Assembly (NCBI GenBank): GCA_029945665.1
Contig: JAQSCZ010000023.1
Location: forward strand, 1-41,712
Source of the DNA: a bacterium
GTDB taxonomy: Bacteria > Bacteroidota > Bacteroidia > NS11-12g > UBA955
Length of the DNA: 41,712 bases
Reading direction: 5' to 3'
Shown here: positions 33,525 through 38,354 of the stretch, piece after piece
Numbering within the stretch: the first letter of the stretch is position 1
How the letters are laid out: each line of letters begins with the position of its first letter
Position numbers and translations under genes: made by a program
Notes under the pieces: generated by a model
What the model was told of the DNA's origin: nothing
The model's database searches: none
What the model saw: the letters and a program-made list of their open reading frames with translations, nothing else

Positions 33525-34064
33525 TTAGCGCCAAGGTTTTACTAGCTGCTCCATGTTTTTAACCAGAGATACCACATCAGTGGTTGCGTTATTTATTCGC
33601 GCACGTAATTTACCATGATTCATTTGCAGGGTTGTCAAACCAAGGTCTATTATTTGTTTCGAAAATATTTTCATGTCCTCCACAGGAGGGGCATAATTGG
33701 TGCTTATAAAATAAGGGCGAGGTAAATACAACTGCCATTGCTTATTCGAAAACCAACGCTTGATGGACGAAGGGCCAATTTGTAGTTTATAATCTTTATT
33801 TAAGCCTCTAATTTTTATAATCGTATCCAATGCCAAATGAGAATTAACGGGAATAACAATTCCATTTTGCGTAGTTTGGTATTTGCGACATTCAATTGAA
33901 AATGTTAAATCTTCTTGCTGCCATGTGGCATTGATATCAAAACCATAACTGTTGCAAAACCCTTGACAAGTGGCTTTGAACTGCATCAATTGATCTGCAA
34001 TGCTATTGCAGTATGCCTGGTTAGCAGCATAATGTGGCGAGCTGTTGTTTTCGAATTGTATCAT
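33525..34064 (-). CDS. Hypothetical protein, 179 aa
   Basis: I do not recognise this protein. It is predicted to be soluble, with no signal peptide. Two cysteine-containing helices near the start (ATCQGFCNSYGF, residues 31-42) are followed by beta strands and an aromatic segment (KRWFSNKQWQLYLPRPYF). The last 45 residues look helical. A possible partner is the small membrane protein just downstream. A 620-bp gene-poor region lies upstream. Confidence 0.6.
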   Translation of the reverse strand: MIQFENNSSPHYAANQAYCNSIADQLMQFKATCQGFCNSYGFDINATWQQEDLTFSIECRKYQTTQNGIVIPVNSHLALDTIIKIRGLNKDYKLQIGPSSIKRWFSNKQWQLYLPRPYFISTNYAPPVEDMKIFSKQIIDLGLTTLQMNHGKLRARINNATTDVVSLVKNMEQLVKPWR

Positions 34065-34686
34065 ATTAAGTCTGATTTTTTTAATTCTGACCTCTCACAA
34101 TTCCAGTTTTCAATAACGAATATAGCAAATGTTCTTATAAAATCTAAATAAATCCGATGAAGTGAAACTAAAAAACTAGCGTAATTATGCGATTAAATGA
34201 TTTTGATATTAGCATTGGTTGCACTTCGTACCCATCGGTCACAAATTGGCTAATGTACAAAAACCAGTGTATTTAACATGGTAATGCAATTATAATCAAT
34301 ATTTTTATTTGTAAATCAGTTGTTAATAATTTTTCGCTTTGTAAAATTGAATGCAAGTTTTTTTTAGCAATTGTTTAATGATTGAATAGAATATCCAATA
34401 CATTCCATCGCGATTTCAGTTTTAAATCAATTATAAGTTCAGATACCAAAAATATGCTAAAGTCATTCTTTCAAAAAGCCTTGCATTTGAGCAAATAGAA
34501 AATCAAATAACGACCTTGTCAACTAGATTTTTTCCACTTAATCTGTTTTTTAATTAGGGCATGAATCACCAGAATGAAACTTATTTTGACCTAAGCGGTG
34601 TAAAAATTAATACCCAAGTGAGTGTTGAGATTTTAAAACAATGAAGGGTTACTGAAATAAAACATACCGAACGGTATGTTTTATTT
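34065..34686. other. Gene-poor region
   Basis: Mostly AT-rich non-coding DNA. At its right end is palindrome copy 3 (34655-34686). A 27-codon frame, ATG at 34561 to TGA at 34642-34644 on the plus strand, encodes a peptide containing ETYFDLSGVKINTQ and lies just before the palindrome; it may be a small protein or a remnant, with weak support. I see no clear promoter. Confidence 0.4.
34655..34686. terminator. 32-bp near-continuous palindrome, copy 3, at the end of the thiol operon
   Basis: AAATAAAACATACCG (34655-34669) and CGGTATGTTTTATTT (34672-34686) are perfectly complementary over 15 bp with only AA between. It abuts the stop codon of the thioredoxin gene at 34687. The T-rich arm on the minus strand (as AAATAAAA read in complement) makes it a plausible terminator. 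The core ACATACC-N4-GGTATGT also has the size and symmetry of a TetR-type operator. Confidence 0.65.
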
Positions 34687-34986
34687 CTAAATGTTAGAAG
34701 CAATAATTTGCTCCAATTGTTGCAAAGAAACTACACCAGATTGTCTCCATTTAATGACACCATCCTTAAATAAAATTAGGGTAGGGACACCTTGTATTTT
34801 ATACGCACCAGCTGCTTGTGGACTTTTGTCAACATCAATTTTTATAATGGTGGCCTTGTCGCCAATCCTAGTTTTTAATTGTTCAAGGACGGGTTTCATG
34901 GCTTTGCATGGACCGCACCATTCGGCATGAAAATCTACTAAAGTTGGTTTGCTCCCTTGGATTAATTCCGAAAATTTATTGGCCAT
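34687..34986 (-). CDS. Thioredoxin-family protein
   Basis: A cytoplasmic thioredoxin of 99 aa with the active site WCGPCK (C24, C27) and the cis-proline in GVPTLILF. It has no signal peptide. It is the last gene of a seven-gene operon and starts 1 bp after the OsmC-like gene, so it is not the housekeeping thioredoxin by position. It probably reduces disulfides or persulfides formed on the rhodaneses and the OsmC-like protein encoded just upstream; that is an inference from context. Confidence 0.92.
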
Positions 34987-34987
34987 T

Positions 34988-35422
34988 TTAGTTTAACTGA
35001 ATATTTGTAATTAAAGTAACTTTCGATTTAATTGAATTGGAGATTAAACAAGCAGCTTCTGATCGCTGTAAAATTCGCTCAGCTTTTTCTTTATCCGCTT
35101 CATTTTTTAGAACCAGCATTGGCTCAAGAATAATCTCGCTCATTAAAAATTTGCCATCAATTTGTTCTAACTTGCCTTTTGAATCGCAATTGAATGAAAC
35201 AAAATCTAAATGAGAGTTAGCCGCAATTGCTAAAAAAGTAGTCATGAAACAACTGTTTACAGCGGCTGTAAGTAAATGTTCTGGCGACCATATATTTTCG
35301 ATACCATTGGGGAATTGTGGTGGAGTTGCAATTTCTATATTGCTAGAGAGCTCGGGTGAACTAATCTCACCTTTTCTCGCTTCCATCCATTTTAAATTGA
35401 CATTGTAGTAATGTGGTTCCAT
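34988..35422 (-). CDS. OsmC/Ohr-family protein
   Basis: A 144-aa OsmC-fold protein. The two conserved redox cysteines are in [13 protein letters not shown] (residues 52-64) and EAACLISNS (near residue 124), so it should act as a thiol-dependent peroxidase or persulfide-handling protein. The [11 protein letters not shown] motif before the first Cys is typical. It directly abuts the upstream gene (0 bp gap) and the thioredoxin gene (1 bp gap), which suggests that thioredoxin is its reductant. Confidence 0.9.
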
Positions 35423-35671
35423 TTATTTGTTTTTAATTTCTTCGAATTCTACATCCTCAATACTGCCTTGGTTTGTATTGTTAGTTGGCGTTACACAGCC
35501 TGATGGGCCGCAACAACCAACATTGGTAGCAACTTGAAATAGTAAAATGATGGATAAGAAGCCCAGAAAATAATCATGGGCTTGAATAGCTTGCATTCCA
35601 ATCATTAAGCTCAAAAATAATCTGAGGAAACGCATGAAATGCCAACCAGTTAAGAGCGTTTTTAAATTCAT
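35423..35671 (-). CDS. Small membrane protein with CCGPSGC motif (YgaP-like/DUF2892)
   Basis: An 82-aa protein with two membrane helices (about residues 13-31 and 34-52), followed by a cysteine cluster C53-C54-G-P-S-G-C59 and an acidic tail. The layout resembles the C-terminal membrane part of YgaP, a membrane rhodanese, although the rhodanese domain is encoded separately by the next gene upstream, which overlaps by 4 bp. The cluster may bind a metal, or accept sulfane sulfur at the membrane. The exact function is unknown. Confidence 0.8.
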   Translation of the reverse strand: MNLKTLLTGWHFMRFLRLFLSLMIGMQAIQAHDYFLGFLSIILLFQVATNVGCCGPSGCVTPTNNTNQGSIEDVEFEEIKNK

Positions 35672-35982
35672 CTTAATTTACTTTGTAAACTGCTCCATCC
35701 ACCACCATTATATACTTGGTCGAAGCCATTGGCTTTTAAAATGGTTTTAGCTTGAGCACTTCGCATGCCCGATGCACAACAAGTAATAATTGCTTGGTCC
35801 TTTTTTAATTTTGAATAATGGTTCGATAGATTATTCAATGGTACATTGATAGAGTTTTTGACATGTCCTTGCTGATATTCTGCCTTGGTGCGAACATCTA
35901 AAATTACGGCGCCATCTTTAACCAATTGTTTATAGTCTGTTGAGGGACCAAATCCCAAAATTCTTTTAATTGCTTGTAGCAT
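35668..35982 (-). CDS. Rhodanese-like sulfurtransferase, 104 aa
   Basis: A single-domain rhodanese. The catalytic loop is CCASGMR, in which C69 is the active Cys (C-x4-R, R74), preceded by an unusual second cysteine C68. Other signs are VILDVRTKAEY with GHVKNSINVP near residues 26-48, and the NGGGW end. The first 15 residues are a hydrophobic-basic extension. It overlaps the small membrane protein gene by 4 bp and follows the second rhodanese gene by 2 bp. It probably carries persulfide sulfur. Confidence 0.92.
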   Translation of the reverse strand: MLQAIKRILGFGPSTDYKQLVKDGAVILDVRTKAEYQQGHVKNSINVPLNNLSNHYSKLKKDQAIITCCASGMRSAQAKTILKANGFDQVYNGGGWSSLQSKLR

Positions 35983-35984
35983 AT

Positions 35985-36269
35985 TTATTTTTGTAATGAT
36001 TTATAATAATTAACATCTGTCCATGCACCACCATTATAACACTCGATACCACTTTGCGAGAGGAATCCATGCGCCATGCCACTTCTGCCGCCTGAAGCGC
36101 AACATAAGATAAGCGGGGTTGCTAAAGCTTTCAATTCTTCTAAGTGCTGGGTTAGTTCTTGTACAGGAATGTTTATTGAGCCTACGACATGACCGCCTCT
36201 GAATTCATCGGGTGTGCGCACATCTACGATAGTGCCTTTGTTCTGTGAAATTATTTCTGATATGTTCAT
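35985..36269 (-). CDS. Rhodanese-like sulfurtransferase, 94 aa
   Basis: A minimal rhodanese domain. The catalytic loop CCASGGR gives active C57 (R62), again with a second cysteine just before it, as in the neighbouring rhodanese. IVDVRTPDEFRGGHVVGSIN (residues 14-33) and the final YNGGAW complete the family pattern. Having two different rhodaneses side by side suggests sequential sulfur transfer or partners with different locations. It follows the CNGC protein gene by 1 bp. Confidence 0.92.
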   Translation of the reverse strand: MNISEIISQNKGTIVDVRTPDEFRGGHVVGSINIPVQELTQHLEELKALATPLILCCASGGRSGMAHGFLSQSGIECYNGGAWTDVNYYKSLQK

Positions 36270-36270
36270 T

Positions 36271-36549
36271 TTATTTGGATTGTAAATTGTTTAGTTTTCC
36301 TATCATGCAGCTACCATAGCTTTTAAGTTGTAATAGTAAGCCGTTTTTTTCGGTGGCCTCTGGATAACCTAGATCTAATAATCTATTGATTATTAAATTG
36401 CGATCCGTAGTATATGATAATTGAATTGAATCGTTTTCTAAGTCGACTTCAATTGTGTTAACACATTCTATTGCTTGCAATTCTTTTTTAATGGTGCTGG
36501 CACAACCATTGCATTTAAGGTTGGCTATTTTAATTGTTTCAGTTGTCAT
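36271..36549 (-). CDS. Heavy-metal-associated domain protein
   Basis: A 92-aa HMA-fold protein with the metal/thiol motif CNGC (C13, C16) in LKCNGC and a beta-alpha-beta-beta-alpha-beta pattern over about residues 4-70. It lacks a transport ATPase, so it acts alone as a carrier or sensor. A C-terminal extension carries a further Cys in YGSCMIG. It overlaps the membrane protein gene upstream by 11 bp. It may bind Cu(I), or accept sulfur within this cysteine-rich operon; the ligand is unknown. Confidence 0.85.
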   Translation of the reverse strand: MTTETIKIANLKCNGCASTIKKELQAIECVNTIEVDLENDSIQLSYTTDRNLIINRLLDLGYPEATEKNGLLLQLKSYGSCMIGKLNNLQSK

Positions 36550-36754
36550 TTGTTGTTGTTTTTACTTTGGGTTTTTCAAATAAATTGAAGAACAAACCAC
36601 CCATCATTGCTCCATATAAGCTACTGTTTAATGGTTTCGAAGTGATAGCGCAAGTGCCACTTGAACAGCCGACAAAGTAATAGTAGGCATAGCCTAATAT
36701 ACTTCCTGTGACTGCTCCAATGATTGTTATTTTATAGGATTGAATAAACCGCAT
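36539..36754 (-). CDS. Small membrane protein with CSSGTC motif (DUF6132-like)
   Basis: A 71-aa protein and the first gene of the operon. A first membrane helix (about 9-28) ends in C30-S-S-G-T-C35, a second covers about 46-60, and the tail is basic. The cysteine pair is arranged like CCGPSGC in the fourth membrane-associated partner downstream. Related small proteins often accompany rhodaneses in Bacteroidota. The function is unknown; a membrane-side sulfur or electron acceptor is a possible reading. Confidence 0.75.
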   Translation of the reverse strand: MRFIQSYKITIIGAVTGSILGYAYYYFVGCSSGTCAITSKPLNSSLYGAMMGGLFFNLFEKPKVKTTTNDN

Positions 36755-36780: not shown

Positions 36781-36802
36781 CATCACTCAAAATGGATATT
36801 CA

Positions 36803-36819
36803 GTTACATTTGTTACATT
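36803..36819. promoter_or_regulatory. GTTACATT direct repeat, candidate activator site
   Basis: GTTACATT occurs at 36803-36810 and again at 36812-36819, a 9-bp period, on the plus strand. The spacing from the -7 element places it where a class II activator would bind. TGTTACA occurs also near 37621, upstream of the YgaP-like gene. Crp/Fnr binding is a guess; the sequence is a direct, not inverted, repeat. Confidence 0.35.
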
Positions 36820-37047
36820 ACAGTTATTTATTTAATTTATTAAACGAATGGCAGTGATTCCGAAAAATACATTTAGGCTAGGCATTGTTTTAAATGGGTT
36901 TTTTATGAGAATATTTAACGTGTGTTCGGGTTAAGGAAGTATATTCAAACTAAAATTAATTATGTTATTATTTTGCTACTATTTTGTGTAAATGATTTGA
37001 AAAGAGGTAATCGAAGTAAAGAAATTGTAAATAAAATTAGCATTTTA

Positions 37048-37200
37048 GGACGACACTGCGGGCTGGGTCCACGCATGCGTAAAAATTTCAATTGGTCAGG
37101 GATGAAGGGCGAGCCTGTGCGAGAAGACCAATAGGAATTTTCTATGCGTGGTGGGCTTTTTGTCTCCTTTTTGCCCACACAAACCACGAAGTCGCAGCGA
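37048..37200. ncRNA. Candidate structured RNA or hairpin element
   Basis: This stretch is visibly richer in G and C than its surroundings and folds into long nested helices. CCACGCAT (37069-37076) pairs with ATGCGTGG (37144-37151). AAAATTTC (37082-37089) pairs with GGAATTTT (37134-37141, one G-U). ATTGGTC (37091-37097) pairs with GACCAAT (37126-37132). A 28-nt apical loop rich in purines remains. A second hairpin, GTGGGC (37151-37156) with GCCCAC (37173-37178), follows, and CTGCG/CGCAG (37056-37060, 37194-37198) could close the whole. No promoter is seen. It could also be a miniature mobile element. Confidence 0.4.
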
Positions 37201-37292
37201 AGCTAAAGGAGAAGAAAATGAATATGATTAAAATACTTGAGGAATCATATTTAATTGATAAACTTGACCCGAACTCACGTTATTTAAATAAA

Positions 37293-37323
37293 CGAAATAC
37301 CCTAATTGTCTCAGGGTATTTCG
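37293..37323 (-). terminator. Terminator of the YgaP-like gene
   Basis: CGAAATACCCT (37293-37303) pairs perfectly with AGGGTATTTCG (37313-37323) around a 9-nt loop. On the minus strand it is followed by TTTATTTAAAT. It lies 33 bp after the stop of the gene at 37356, and separates that gene from the thiol operon. Confidence 0.75.
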
Positions 37324-37355
37324 TAGTAATTATTTTACATTCTTAATTAAAAGTA

Positions 37356-37562
37356 TTAATCTTTCTTCTTTACAGTTGAAATGCCAAAAGGTAGATAAAG
37401 TGGGCAAAAACTTATAAAGCTTGTAAGAATAAATACACCGGCTAAAACCAATAAAATGCTTGCAGTAACTCCTGAAATTGCACCTGTGAAATACATTATT
37501 GCAATGGCGACAGCAGCTAGTATCCTAACCACCTTGTCTGTAGTACCCATGTTTTTTTTCAT
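37356..37562 (-). CDS. YgaP-like small membrane protein (DUF2892)
   Basis: A 68-aa protein with two membrane helices (about residues 10-28 and 32-51), the N-terminal GTTDKVVRIL motif and CPLYLPFG at the C-terminal end of helix 2, all typical of DUF2892. This domain forms the membrane part of YgaP, which handles sulfur and nitrosothiols through its rhodanese part. Here it is alone, between the Crp/Fnr gene and the thiol operon. An 8-bp inverted repeat (37616-37641) lies upstream. I infer it works with the rhodaneses next door. Confidence 0.85.
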   Translation of the reverse strand: MKKNMGTTDKVVRILAAVAIAIMYFTGAISGVTASILLVLAGVFILTSFISFCPLYLPFGISTVKKKD

Positions 37563-37615
37563 ATTATGATATTAATAGATACAAATTTGATGTAATTAAT
37601 AGAAAGTGAATGCAA

Positions 37616-37641
37616 CCATTGTTACACAAACTGAACAATGG
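37616..37641. promoter_or_regulatory. 8-bp inverted repeat upstream of the YgaP-like gene
   Basis: CCATTGTT (37616-37623) and AACAATGG (37634-37641) flank 10 nt. It lies about 45-55 bp upstream of a near-consensus -7 element (CAAATTTG, 37582-37589), where an activator could bind. It is also between the stop of the Crp/Fnr gene and this promoter, so a terminator role is possible, though no T-run follows. Confidence 0.4.
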
Positions 37642-37682: not shown

Positions 37683-38303
37683 TTAAATCAAGGTTATTTT
37701 ATTGCGCCCTAGTTTTACAAGTCCTTCATCTTCCATTTGTTTTAACAATCTGGATACCACCACGCGCGCAGTGCCGAGCTCGGCAGATAATGTTTCATGT
37801 GTGATTGAAAGCGTTTTTGTGTTAGAGAGTTCGCATTTTTTTTGAATAAAATTAAGAATACGCTCATCCATTTTTTTAAATGCTACAGCATTTACAACCT
37901 CTAATAATTCTTCGAATCTTTTGTGGTATAATTTAAAAATATAATCTAACCACTGGGGGTGTTCTCTAATTAAAAGACTCACTTTATCAATAGGAATGAA
38001 AAGTATTTCGGTATCCTCTTCGGCAATGGCTTTGACCTTACTGGTGTCGTGGTGTATTCCGCCTAAGAATGACATAATGCAACTTTCTCCTGCCTTGATA
38101 TAATATAAAAGAATTTCCCTGCCATCTTCATCTGGTCGCATAACCCGAATACTGCCGCTTATTACAATTGGTATCGCATTGATATAAGCATTTTCATTTA
38201 GTATAATTTCGCCTTCCTTGAATGATTTGGCAATACCAAAAGACAAAAGTTTTTCGTTGATTTCAGGTGTCGTTTTAAAATCTGCTAATTGGTCTAAATC
38301 CAT
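37683..38303 (-). CDS. Crp/Fnr-family transcriptional regulator
   Basis: A 206-aa regulator. The N-terminal cyclic-nucleotide-binding-like domain (about 18-125) includes FKEGEIILNENAY and GSIRVMRPDEDGRE. A winged helix-turn-helix (about 140-206) has TLSAELGTARVVVSRLLKQ. There are no N-terminal iron-sulfur cysteines, so it is not an FNR-type oxygen sensor. A lone Cys in AGESCIMSFLGG may be a redox-sensitive site. The gene is next to the thiol operon and divergent from a symporter. Its promoter (38308-38339) overlaps a 22-bp palindrome, which suggests autoregulation. The predicted transcript is nearly leaderless. Confidence 0.92.
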   Translation of the reverse strand: MDLDQLADFKTTPEINEKLLSFGIAKSFKEGEIILNENAYINAIPIVISGSIRVMRPDEDGREILLYYIKAGESCIMSFLGGIHHDTSKVKAIAEEDTEILFIPIDKVSLLIREHPQWLDYIFKLYHKRFEELLEVVNAVAFKKMDERILNFIQKKCELSNTKTLSITHETLSAELGTARVVVSRLLKQMEDEGLVKLGRNKITLI

Positions 38304-38307
38304 TGAG

Positions 38308-38339
38308 CAAAGTTAAACATAATTTAGTTGCCTAGACAA
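38308..38339 (-). promoter_or_regulatory. Promoter of the Crp/Fnr gene
   Basis: On the minus strand: TTG (38339-38337), a 21-bp spacer and TAACTTTG (38315-38308). The ATG begins only 4 nt after the -7 element, so transcription should start at or beside the start codon. The TTG lies within the left arm of the palindrome at 38333-38354. Confidence 0.75.
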
Positions 38340-38354
38340 TCAGGGGATTGTCTA
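38333..38354. promoter_or_regulatory. 22-bp perfect palindrome, candidate operator
   Basis: TAGACAATC (38333-38341) and GATTGTCTA (38346-38354) are perfectly complementary over 9 bp around AGGG. The site lies in the divergent region between the regulator and the symporter and covers the -33 element of the regulator promoter. It is not the FNR consensus TTGAT-N4-ATCAA. Autorepression by the Crp/Fnr protein, or control of both genes, is an inference. Confidence 0.6.

Follow-up and report, generated by a model that had tools for sequence, protein, structure and literature searches.

The 41,712-nucleotide stretch of Bacteroidota DNA analyzed here (contig JAQSCZ010000023.1 of assembly GCA_029945665.1; the whole 41.7-kb stretch is called the window below) carries seven tightly packed minus-strand genes at positions 34687-36754, which we interpret, with a probability of about 0.7, as a Crp/Fnr-controlled operon of Bacteroidota for handling sulfane sulfur (persulfide). 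Most likely it serves, under Crp control, to transfer sulfane sulfur and dispose of it in the presence of sulfide or polysulfide. The seven genes in transcription order, and the two genes that Pfam identifies upstream of them, are as follows.

36539..36754, minus strand: DUF6132, small membrane-type protein with the motif GCxSGTCAITS (PF19628, 38.6 bits, above the cut-off of 23.2)
36271..36549, minus strand: HMA (CopZ-like) protein with a CNGC motif (PF00403, 45.5 bits)
35985..36269, minus strand: Rhd1, single-domain rhodanese by Pfam, with the loop CCASGGRS, C56, catalytic C57 by alignment, and C77
35668..35982, minus strand: Rhd2, single-domain rhodanese by Pfam, with the loop CCASGMRS, C68, and catalytic C69 by alignment
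35423..35671, minus strand: CCGP protein, two predicted helices followed by a cysteine motif (C53, C59)
34988..35422, minus strand: OsmC-family protein with C58 and C125 (PF02566, 55 bits, above the cut-off of 27.5)
34687..34986, minus strand: thioredoxin with WCGPCK (TIGR01068, 102.2 bits, above the cut-off of 96.8)
37356..37562, minus strand: YgaP-like transmembrane protein, YgaP-TM (PF11127, 73.8 bits)
37683..38303, minus strand: Crp/Fnr-family regulator with C75 (Pfam)

Counted in transcription order, the gaps between the seven open reading frames (ORFs) are -11, +1, +2, -4, 0, and +1 bp, confirming the coordinates and the tight packing given in an earlier, sequence-only reading of this DNA. 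Pfam gives the order DUF6132, HMA, rhodanese, rhodanese, no family (the CCGP protein), OsmC, and thioredoxin; the OsmC protein falls below the narrower SACOL1771 model (64.5 versus a cut-off of 166). The operon is rich in cysteine (19 of 686 residues, 2.8%); across 39 further window ORFs the figure is 118 of 10749 (1.1%; Fisher p = 0.0007). It also holds all three CC dipeptides found among the 46 window ORFs compared.

The sequence-only reading placed a cysteine motif in every product, and most of these cysteines are conserved when the named relatives and the window sequence are counted together by aligned column. DUF6132 keeps C30 in 76/77 and C35 in 77/77 sequences, and the HMA protein keeps C13 in 15/16, C16 in 15/15, and C81 in 14/15, while C29 of the window HMA protein is absent from the list of shared columns. 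C58 and C125 of OsmC are found in 30/30 and C79 in 20/30, both cysteines of the thioredoxin CxxC motif (C24 and C27) in 40/40, and C53 of the upstream YgaP-TM protein in 36/36. For the CCGPSGC motif the claim stands only in part: C53 (54/55) and C59 (54/54) are conserved, but C54 is not (23/55). C81 of the HMA protein lies in a conserved, KSYxSCMIGK-like C-terminal tail beyond the HMA domain match.

Both rhodaneses (70.8 and 48.4 bits) exceed the Pfam cut-off of 22.2 and possess the catalytic loop. Alignment with other rhodaneses identifies the second cysteine of the CC pair as the catalytic one, C57 in Rhd1 (48/49) and C69 in Rhd2 (49/49), the positions already proposed from the sequence, and the extra cysteine is the residue immediately before (C56, 49/49, and C68, 40/49). 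Over the pooled loci, 65 of 69 Rhd1 and 63 of 79 Rhd2 proteins have CC at the loop, counts that hold some duplicates because the named-genome and class-genome sets described below partly overlap; the Rhd2 exceptions include one CCATG and 12 with FC. By comparison, YC stands at this place in 28/29 rhodanese-thioredoxin proteins from these clusters. Of 29 dioxygenase-rhodaneses, 5 fitted the loop pattern and have HC, as do 4 inspected among the 24 that did not fit. By these counts the doubled cysteine, which the sequence-only reading called shared and unusual, is a diagnostic feature of the two rhodanese families. The two families also differ in a third cysteine before NGG, present in 64/69 Rhd1 but 1/79 Rhd2 proteins; C77 of Rhd1 is conserved in 47/49.

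The structure model of Rhd1 has a predicted local distance difference test score (pLDDT) of 94.2, and its nearest solved folds include CoADR-Rhd, NADH-dependent persulfide reductase, and PDO-rhodanese (dioxygenase-rhodanese) fusions. A place for C77 in the Rhd1 active site was considered and rejected, since in the model C77 opens the strand 77-82, different from the strand 53-57 that the catalytic loop follows.

The sequence-only reading had set co-occurrence in other genomes as a test of its proposal, and the proposal survived. We searched 149 genomes of the class at E values of up to 0.001 for DUF6132, 0.01 for CCGP, 1e-10 for OsmC, 1e-15 for Rhd-like proteins, and 1e-8 for HMA, finding them in 54, 39, 32, 85, and 9 genomes, respectively. 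The families co-occur far beyond chance, for which our arithmetic gives less than one case within 5 kb per comparison in genomes of 3-4 Mb. DUF6132 and CCGP are both present in 26 genomes and lie within 5 kb of each other in 21; CCGP and Rhd are both present in 33 (close in 28), DUF6132 and Rhd in 46 (close in 33), OsmC and Rhd in 24 (close in 12), and HMA and Rhd in 9 (close in 7). HMA and OsmC are accessory members, since at these thresholds they are found in only 9 and 32 of the 149 genomes.

Gene order was compared in the named-genome loci, the best 80 of 576 relatives in a scan with the DUF6132 alignment, which is not an even sample. One locus without a DUF6132 ORF on the anchor strand (L102) was left out, leaving 79, and L041, L065, and L067 share DNA with this set. 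By our reading, 75 of the 80 locus titles give a Bacteroidota taxon. DUF6132 is found in 77 of the 79 loci, CCGP in 54, Rhd2 in 50, Rhd1 in 49, Crp in 45, thioredoxin in 41, YgaP-TM in 35, OsmC in 30, rhodanese-thioredoxin in 29, dioxygenase-rhodanese in 27, TauE in 25, and HMA in 15; the counts for TauE, TPMT, and DUF983 come from single-sequence profiles and are probably low. The commonest neighbors are DUF6132-Rhd1 (35 loci), Rhd1-Rhd2 (34), Rhd2-CCGP (29), and CCGP-thioredoxin (28), and along this core order the median gaps are 1, 4, -1, and 4 bp. The cluster is real and conserved, with the five-gene core DUF6132-Rhd1-Rhd2-CCGP-thioredoxin in 23 of the 79 loci; the complete seven-gene set is rare (L088, L119, and L165). 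Among cultured relatives, Thermoflexibacter ruber (L126) and Flavobacterium bernardetii (L139) have part of the cluster. Records titled Candidatus Kuenenia (L108), Actinomyces (L114), and Azovibrio (L144) hold a Bacteroidota-type cluster and are probably mislabelled bins. Two similar proteins of 536 and 538 amino acids with a Por secretion tail (sorting domain) and no other Pfam domain lie inside clusters, beside DUF6132 or HMA (L098 8481-10091 and L112 8207-9823).

The conserved cysteines in each product and the conserved core order could also fit a strict relay, the route suggested by the sequence-only reading, in which one sulfane sulfur passes in fixed order from the membrane protein via each product to thioredoxin. 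HMA and OsmC are often missing from the named loci (present in 15/79 and 30/79), and OsmC is found on either side of CCGP (12 and 8 loci), so an obligatory seven-step chain is unlikely.

Rhodaneses are carriers of sulfane sulfur, and thioredoxin is a reductant of both disulfides and persulfides; peroxides are reduced by OsmC proteins, and HMA domains bind thiophilic metal. In a sulfane-sulfur operon, Rhd1 and Rhd2 with their CC loops would take up and pass on sulfane sulfur, thioredoxin would provide reducing power, and the OsmC and HMA proteins would deal with by-products, namely peroxide and thiophilic metal. DUF6132 and CCGP may anchor this chemistry to the inner membrane or carry sulfur species from one side of it to the other. 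The substrates, the order of transfer, the binding of Crp to its box, and the Crp signal we infer.

The partners of the cluster in relatives point the same way. Pfam finds, as examples, metallo-beta-lactamase plus rhodanese, pyridine-nucleotide-disulfide oxidoreductase plus rhodanese, and TauE, and further TPMT and other methyltransferases, DUF983, and rhodanese plus thioredoxin. The first has the architecture of an ETHE1-type persulfide dioxygenase fusion, its function being our reading, and the flavoprotein-rhodanese partners are, by their domains, of the CoA-persulfide-reductase type (CoADR-Rhd). Sulfane-sulfur chemistry is supported because relatives add this dioxygenase-rhodanese, the flavoprotein, and the TauE exporter: the oxidative exit in relatives would run through the dioxygenase-rhodanese to sulfite and TauE export, and the reductive exit through CoADR-Rhd. 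On other contigs, the genome of the window itself encodes two metallo-beta-lactamase-rhodanese genes, one rhodanese-thioredoxin gene, and one TauE.

Several observations weigh against this interpretation. Dioxygenase, TauE, and CoADR are all absent from the window operon, no full-length CoADR-Rhd match was found in the genome, and in the stretches scanned around its own TauE and two dioxygenase-rhodaneses no box above 14 bits was found (the box is described below). Of the named loci, 52/79 have no labelled dioxygenase-rhodanese within 5.5 kb, although some of these end at a contig edge. Single variants of the cluster have a multicopper oxidase (L130) or a heavy-metal-binding domain (L157), which are metal-type partners, and others a ferritin-like protein (L097), DUF302 (L110), or AhpC (L142), which fit poorly with pure sulfur chemistry. 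An HMA-DUF6132 pair is also encoded on the Riemerella anatipestifer plasmid NZ_CP081938 (L191 6711-7186), where the 14 kb covered include no annotated rhodanese. Plasmid records matching DUF6132 number four, all from Riemerella.

Part of this evidence would suit an operon for thiophilic-metal (copper) stress, with HMA and the cysteine-rich membrane proteins as binders or transporters of the metal and the rhodaneses and thioredoxin in thiol repair. A CopZ-like HMA domain is encoded in the operon, DUF6132 and HMA are neighbors in 12 named loci as well as on the Riemerella plasmid, and the multicopper oxidase and heavy-metal-binding domain belong here too. We consider such a role improbable: HMA is found in only 15/79 named loci and 9/149 genomes, dioxygenase-rhodanese and TauE are commoner partners, and the rhodanese catalytic loop is retained. 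Still less probable is a general thiol-peroxide defense operon with the rhodaneses as side players. It would account for OsmC and thioredoxin, and for the AhpC and ferritin-like genes of single variants, but OsmC is missing from most named loci (30/79 have it), and the two rhodaneses, with their catalytic cysteine retained, rank among the most frequent members.

The control of the sulfane-sulfur operon was approached through the DNA upstream of the clusters. The sequence-only reading noted the Crp/Fnr and YgaP-like genes upstream and proposed redox or sulfane-sulfur control; the genes are present, but Crp and YgaP-TM probably make up one unit and the seven-gene operon another, because a terminator-like hairpin and a multi-copy repeat lie between YgaP-TM and the operon. 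The same candidate box nevertheless stands before both units. These elements, with the inverted repeat downstream of the operon, are as follows.

36799..36820, minus strand: candidate Crp-type box, 25.9 bits, the best in the window, 44 bp before the DUF6132 start
37608..37629, minus strand: candidate Crp-type box, 16.8 bits, the second-best in the window, 45 bp before the YgaP-TM start
37292-37324: terminator-like hairpin from a hairpin scan, after the YgaP-TM gene, between it and the operon
34654-34687, minus strand: perfect 15-bp inverted repeat with a 4-base loop, read from the sequence, starting within the thioredoxin stop codon

The box was found with a 22-base matrix trained on the DNA preceding 41 named clusters, the window excluded; its seed pattern was picked after a listing that included both window sites, and the matrix itself was made without them. 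An exact-palindrome search of the upstream regions gave no clearly shared arms, and the box emerged only with mismatches allowed. A site above 8 bits is found in 29 of the 41 clusters, which are the matrix's own training set; 200 mononucleotide shuffles, which preserve base composition only and not dinucleotides, gave 0.145 on average and never more than 2. On both strands of the 41.7-kb window, the third-best site has 8.1 bits. Over the 1.02 Mb of named loci, training loci included, 68 of 83 matches above 14 bits are followed, within 400 bp and on the same strand, by a labelled cluster gene. Outside the training set (34 loci, 0.48 Mb, of which L043 shares one 40-mer with it), 13 loci carry 19 strong matches, 15 of them no more than 450 bp ahead of a labelled cluster gene, and the genes so preceded include CoADR-Rhd (L038) and dioxygenase-rhodaneses (L039, L040, and L057). 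The other 21 loci have no such match; by our count, 12 of the 34 loci have a linked Crp, and 4 of these are among the 21.

Since the matrix's two best sites in the window precede the operon and YgaP-TM, the two units probably form one regulon. Control of the operon by the adjacent Crp/Fnr protein is supported by the conserved candidate box but not proven. A wider regulon in the window's genome was considered and rejected: the derived pattern matched exactly at five places and its backward control at nine; of the five, the two window sites lie outside ORFs and the other three inside them. Around six rhodanese or TauE loci of this genome, the only matches above 8 bits have 10.8 (L076) and 13.4 bits (L078), neither directly before the gene concerned.

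The regulator has its own conserved cysteine, C75, present in 45/45 cluster-linked Crp sequences, and four aligned Crp paralogues of the window's genome have no cysteine at this position. In the rhodaneses, the cysteine before the catalytic one would resolve the persulfide, and we tentatively suggest that this frees sulfide and leaves a disulfide for thioredoxin. Joining the two points gives a more speculative and somewhat doubtful proposal: a previously undescribed Bacteroidota regulon in which the C75 Crp/Fnr protein would sense sulfane sulfur and, via a TGTAACA-N3-GTNRC box, activate a membrane-tethered set whose vicinal-cysteine rhodaneses resolve their own persulfide to sulfide and a thioredoxin-reduced disulfide. 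If true, this would provide a reductive exit for sulfane sulfur with no flavoenzyme needed beyond thioredoxin reductase, and DUF6132 and CCGP would be new membrane partners of it.

Among known systems, the cst operon of Staphylococcus is a sulfide-detoxification operon with a CsoR-type regulator, similar to the bigR/blh operon. The latter, in Xylella and Agrobacterium, encodes a sulfurtransferase-dioxygenase, TauE, and a repressor (PMC5823870). The likeness lies in sulfurtransferase genes with a local regulator, and in the ETHE1-type dioxygenase (27/79 named loci) and TauE (25/79) of the relatives. The window operon is not assigned to the bigR/cst type because it lacks both the dioxygenase and TauE and its linked regulator belongs to another family, Crp/Fnr rather than BigR or CsoR. 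It adds to that plan DUF6132, CCGP, paired CC rhodaneses, OsmC, thioredoxin, and HMA. CoA-persulfide reductase and NADH-dependent persulfide reductase (CoADR-Rhd; 8a56 and 3nta) are the closest solved folds to Rhd1, and a fused relative is present in some clusters of relatives, whereas the window rhodaneses stand alone, have the CC loop, and lack a flavoprotein partner in the operon. In the TusA/DsrE-type relays of sulfur oxidizers, sulfane sulfur is handed between small cysteine proteins. The sulfane-sulfur interpretation of the window operon shares this idea, but neither family is found by Pfam among its seven proteins or among the partners scanned. CPR (candidate phyla radiation) bacteria have adjacent dioxygenase and rhodanese genes, an arrangement different from the window cluster (PMC10811913).

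The nearest known pairing of a rhodanese with a membrane segment is YgaP of Escherichia coli, a membrane rhodanese cotranscribed with the sulfide-responsive repressor YgaV (PMC4730233, PMC9774250). Common to both are a rhodanese linked with two membrane helices, which in CCGP are predicted, and a cysteine near the end of the second helix (C159 in YgaP); BLASTP also aligns Rhd2 to the rhodanese domain of YgaP (E 4e-9). YgaP carries both domains in one chain, whereas the window genes are separate, their regulator is different, and homology of CCGP to the YgaP membrane domain is unproven. The window CCGP protein has no Pfam or NCBIfam match over cut-off. Among 33 CCGP members, 18 match PF11127 (YgaP-like_TM) at E values of up to 1, the best being a weak 4.5e-4, and the CCGP profile comparison gave 26% and, with E. 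coli YgaP, 2.3%. Foldseek with the CCGP model (pLDDT 71.6, predicted template modeling score 0.47) returned no fold with an E value of 0.001 or less. When the CCGP and YgaP-TM profiles were run against PDB sequences, each found a single weak, irrelevant match, and no natural fusion of a rhodanese with a two-helix membrane domain was found in 92 loci (L075-L166). With weak profile matches, failed direct comparisons, and no such fusion, a split YgaP made of Rhd2 and CCGP was not adopted and is kept here as a possibility.

The 15-bp inverted repeat at 34654-34687 likely marks the end of the operon, although an automatic terminator scan of the window did not report it. A scan for sigma-70-type promoters gave no signal above chance, with 21 sites versus 17.7 expected. 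The repeat between YgaP-TM and the operon (~36916-37282) is a dispersed element of ~370 bp with 20-bp terminal inverted repeats, resembling a miniature inverted-repeat transposable element, with 74 matches across the genome, four of them near full length; the short ORFs there (36922-37346) are unlikely to be genes. A terminator-like hairpin with a 9-bp stem (38333-38354, plus strand) lies where Crp and a dicarboxylate transporter gene diverge. Downstream of the operon, the ORF at 33525-34064 (179 amino acids) has no Pfam match, and a relative of it (E 4e-40) lies ~5.5 kb from the cluster thioredoxin in L041.

No description of the cluster or of DUF6132 was found in a literature search outside of which most subscription journals lay, and the single match for DUF6132 concerns, by its title, nucleotide-sugar transporters. 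Systems of this kind are known, but the composition of this one, its DNA switch, and two of the protein families in it seem not to have been described. The analysis offers a testable function for DUF6132 and for the CCGP membrane-protein family, and predicts a local Bacteroidota regulon with a defined DNA box. The cysteine preceding the catalytic one is diagnostic for two rhodanese families, and its role is directly testable. The conserved gene set may serve as a marker for sulfane-sulfur handling in uncultured Bacteroidota.

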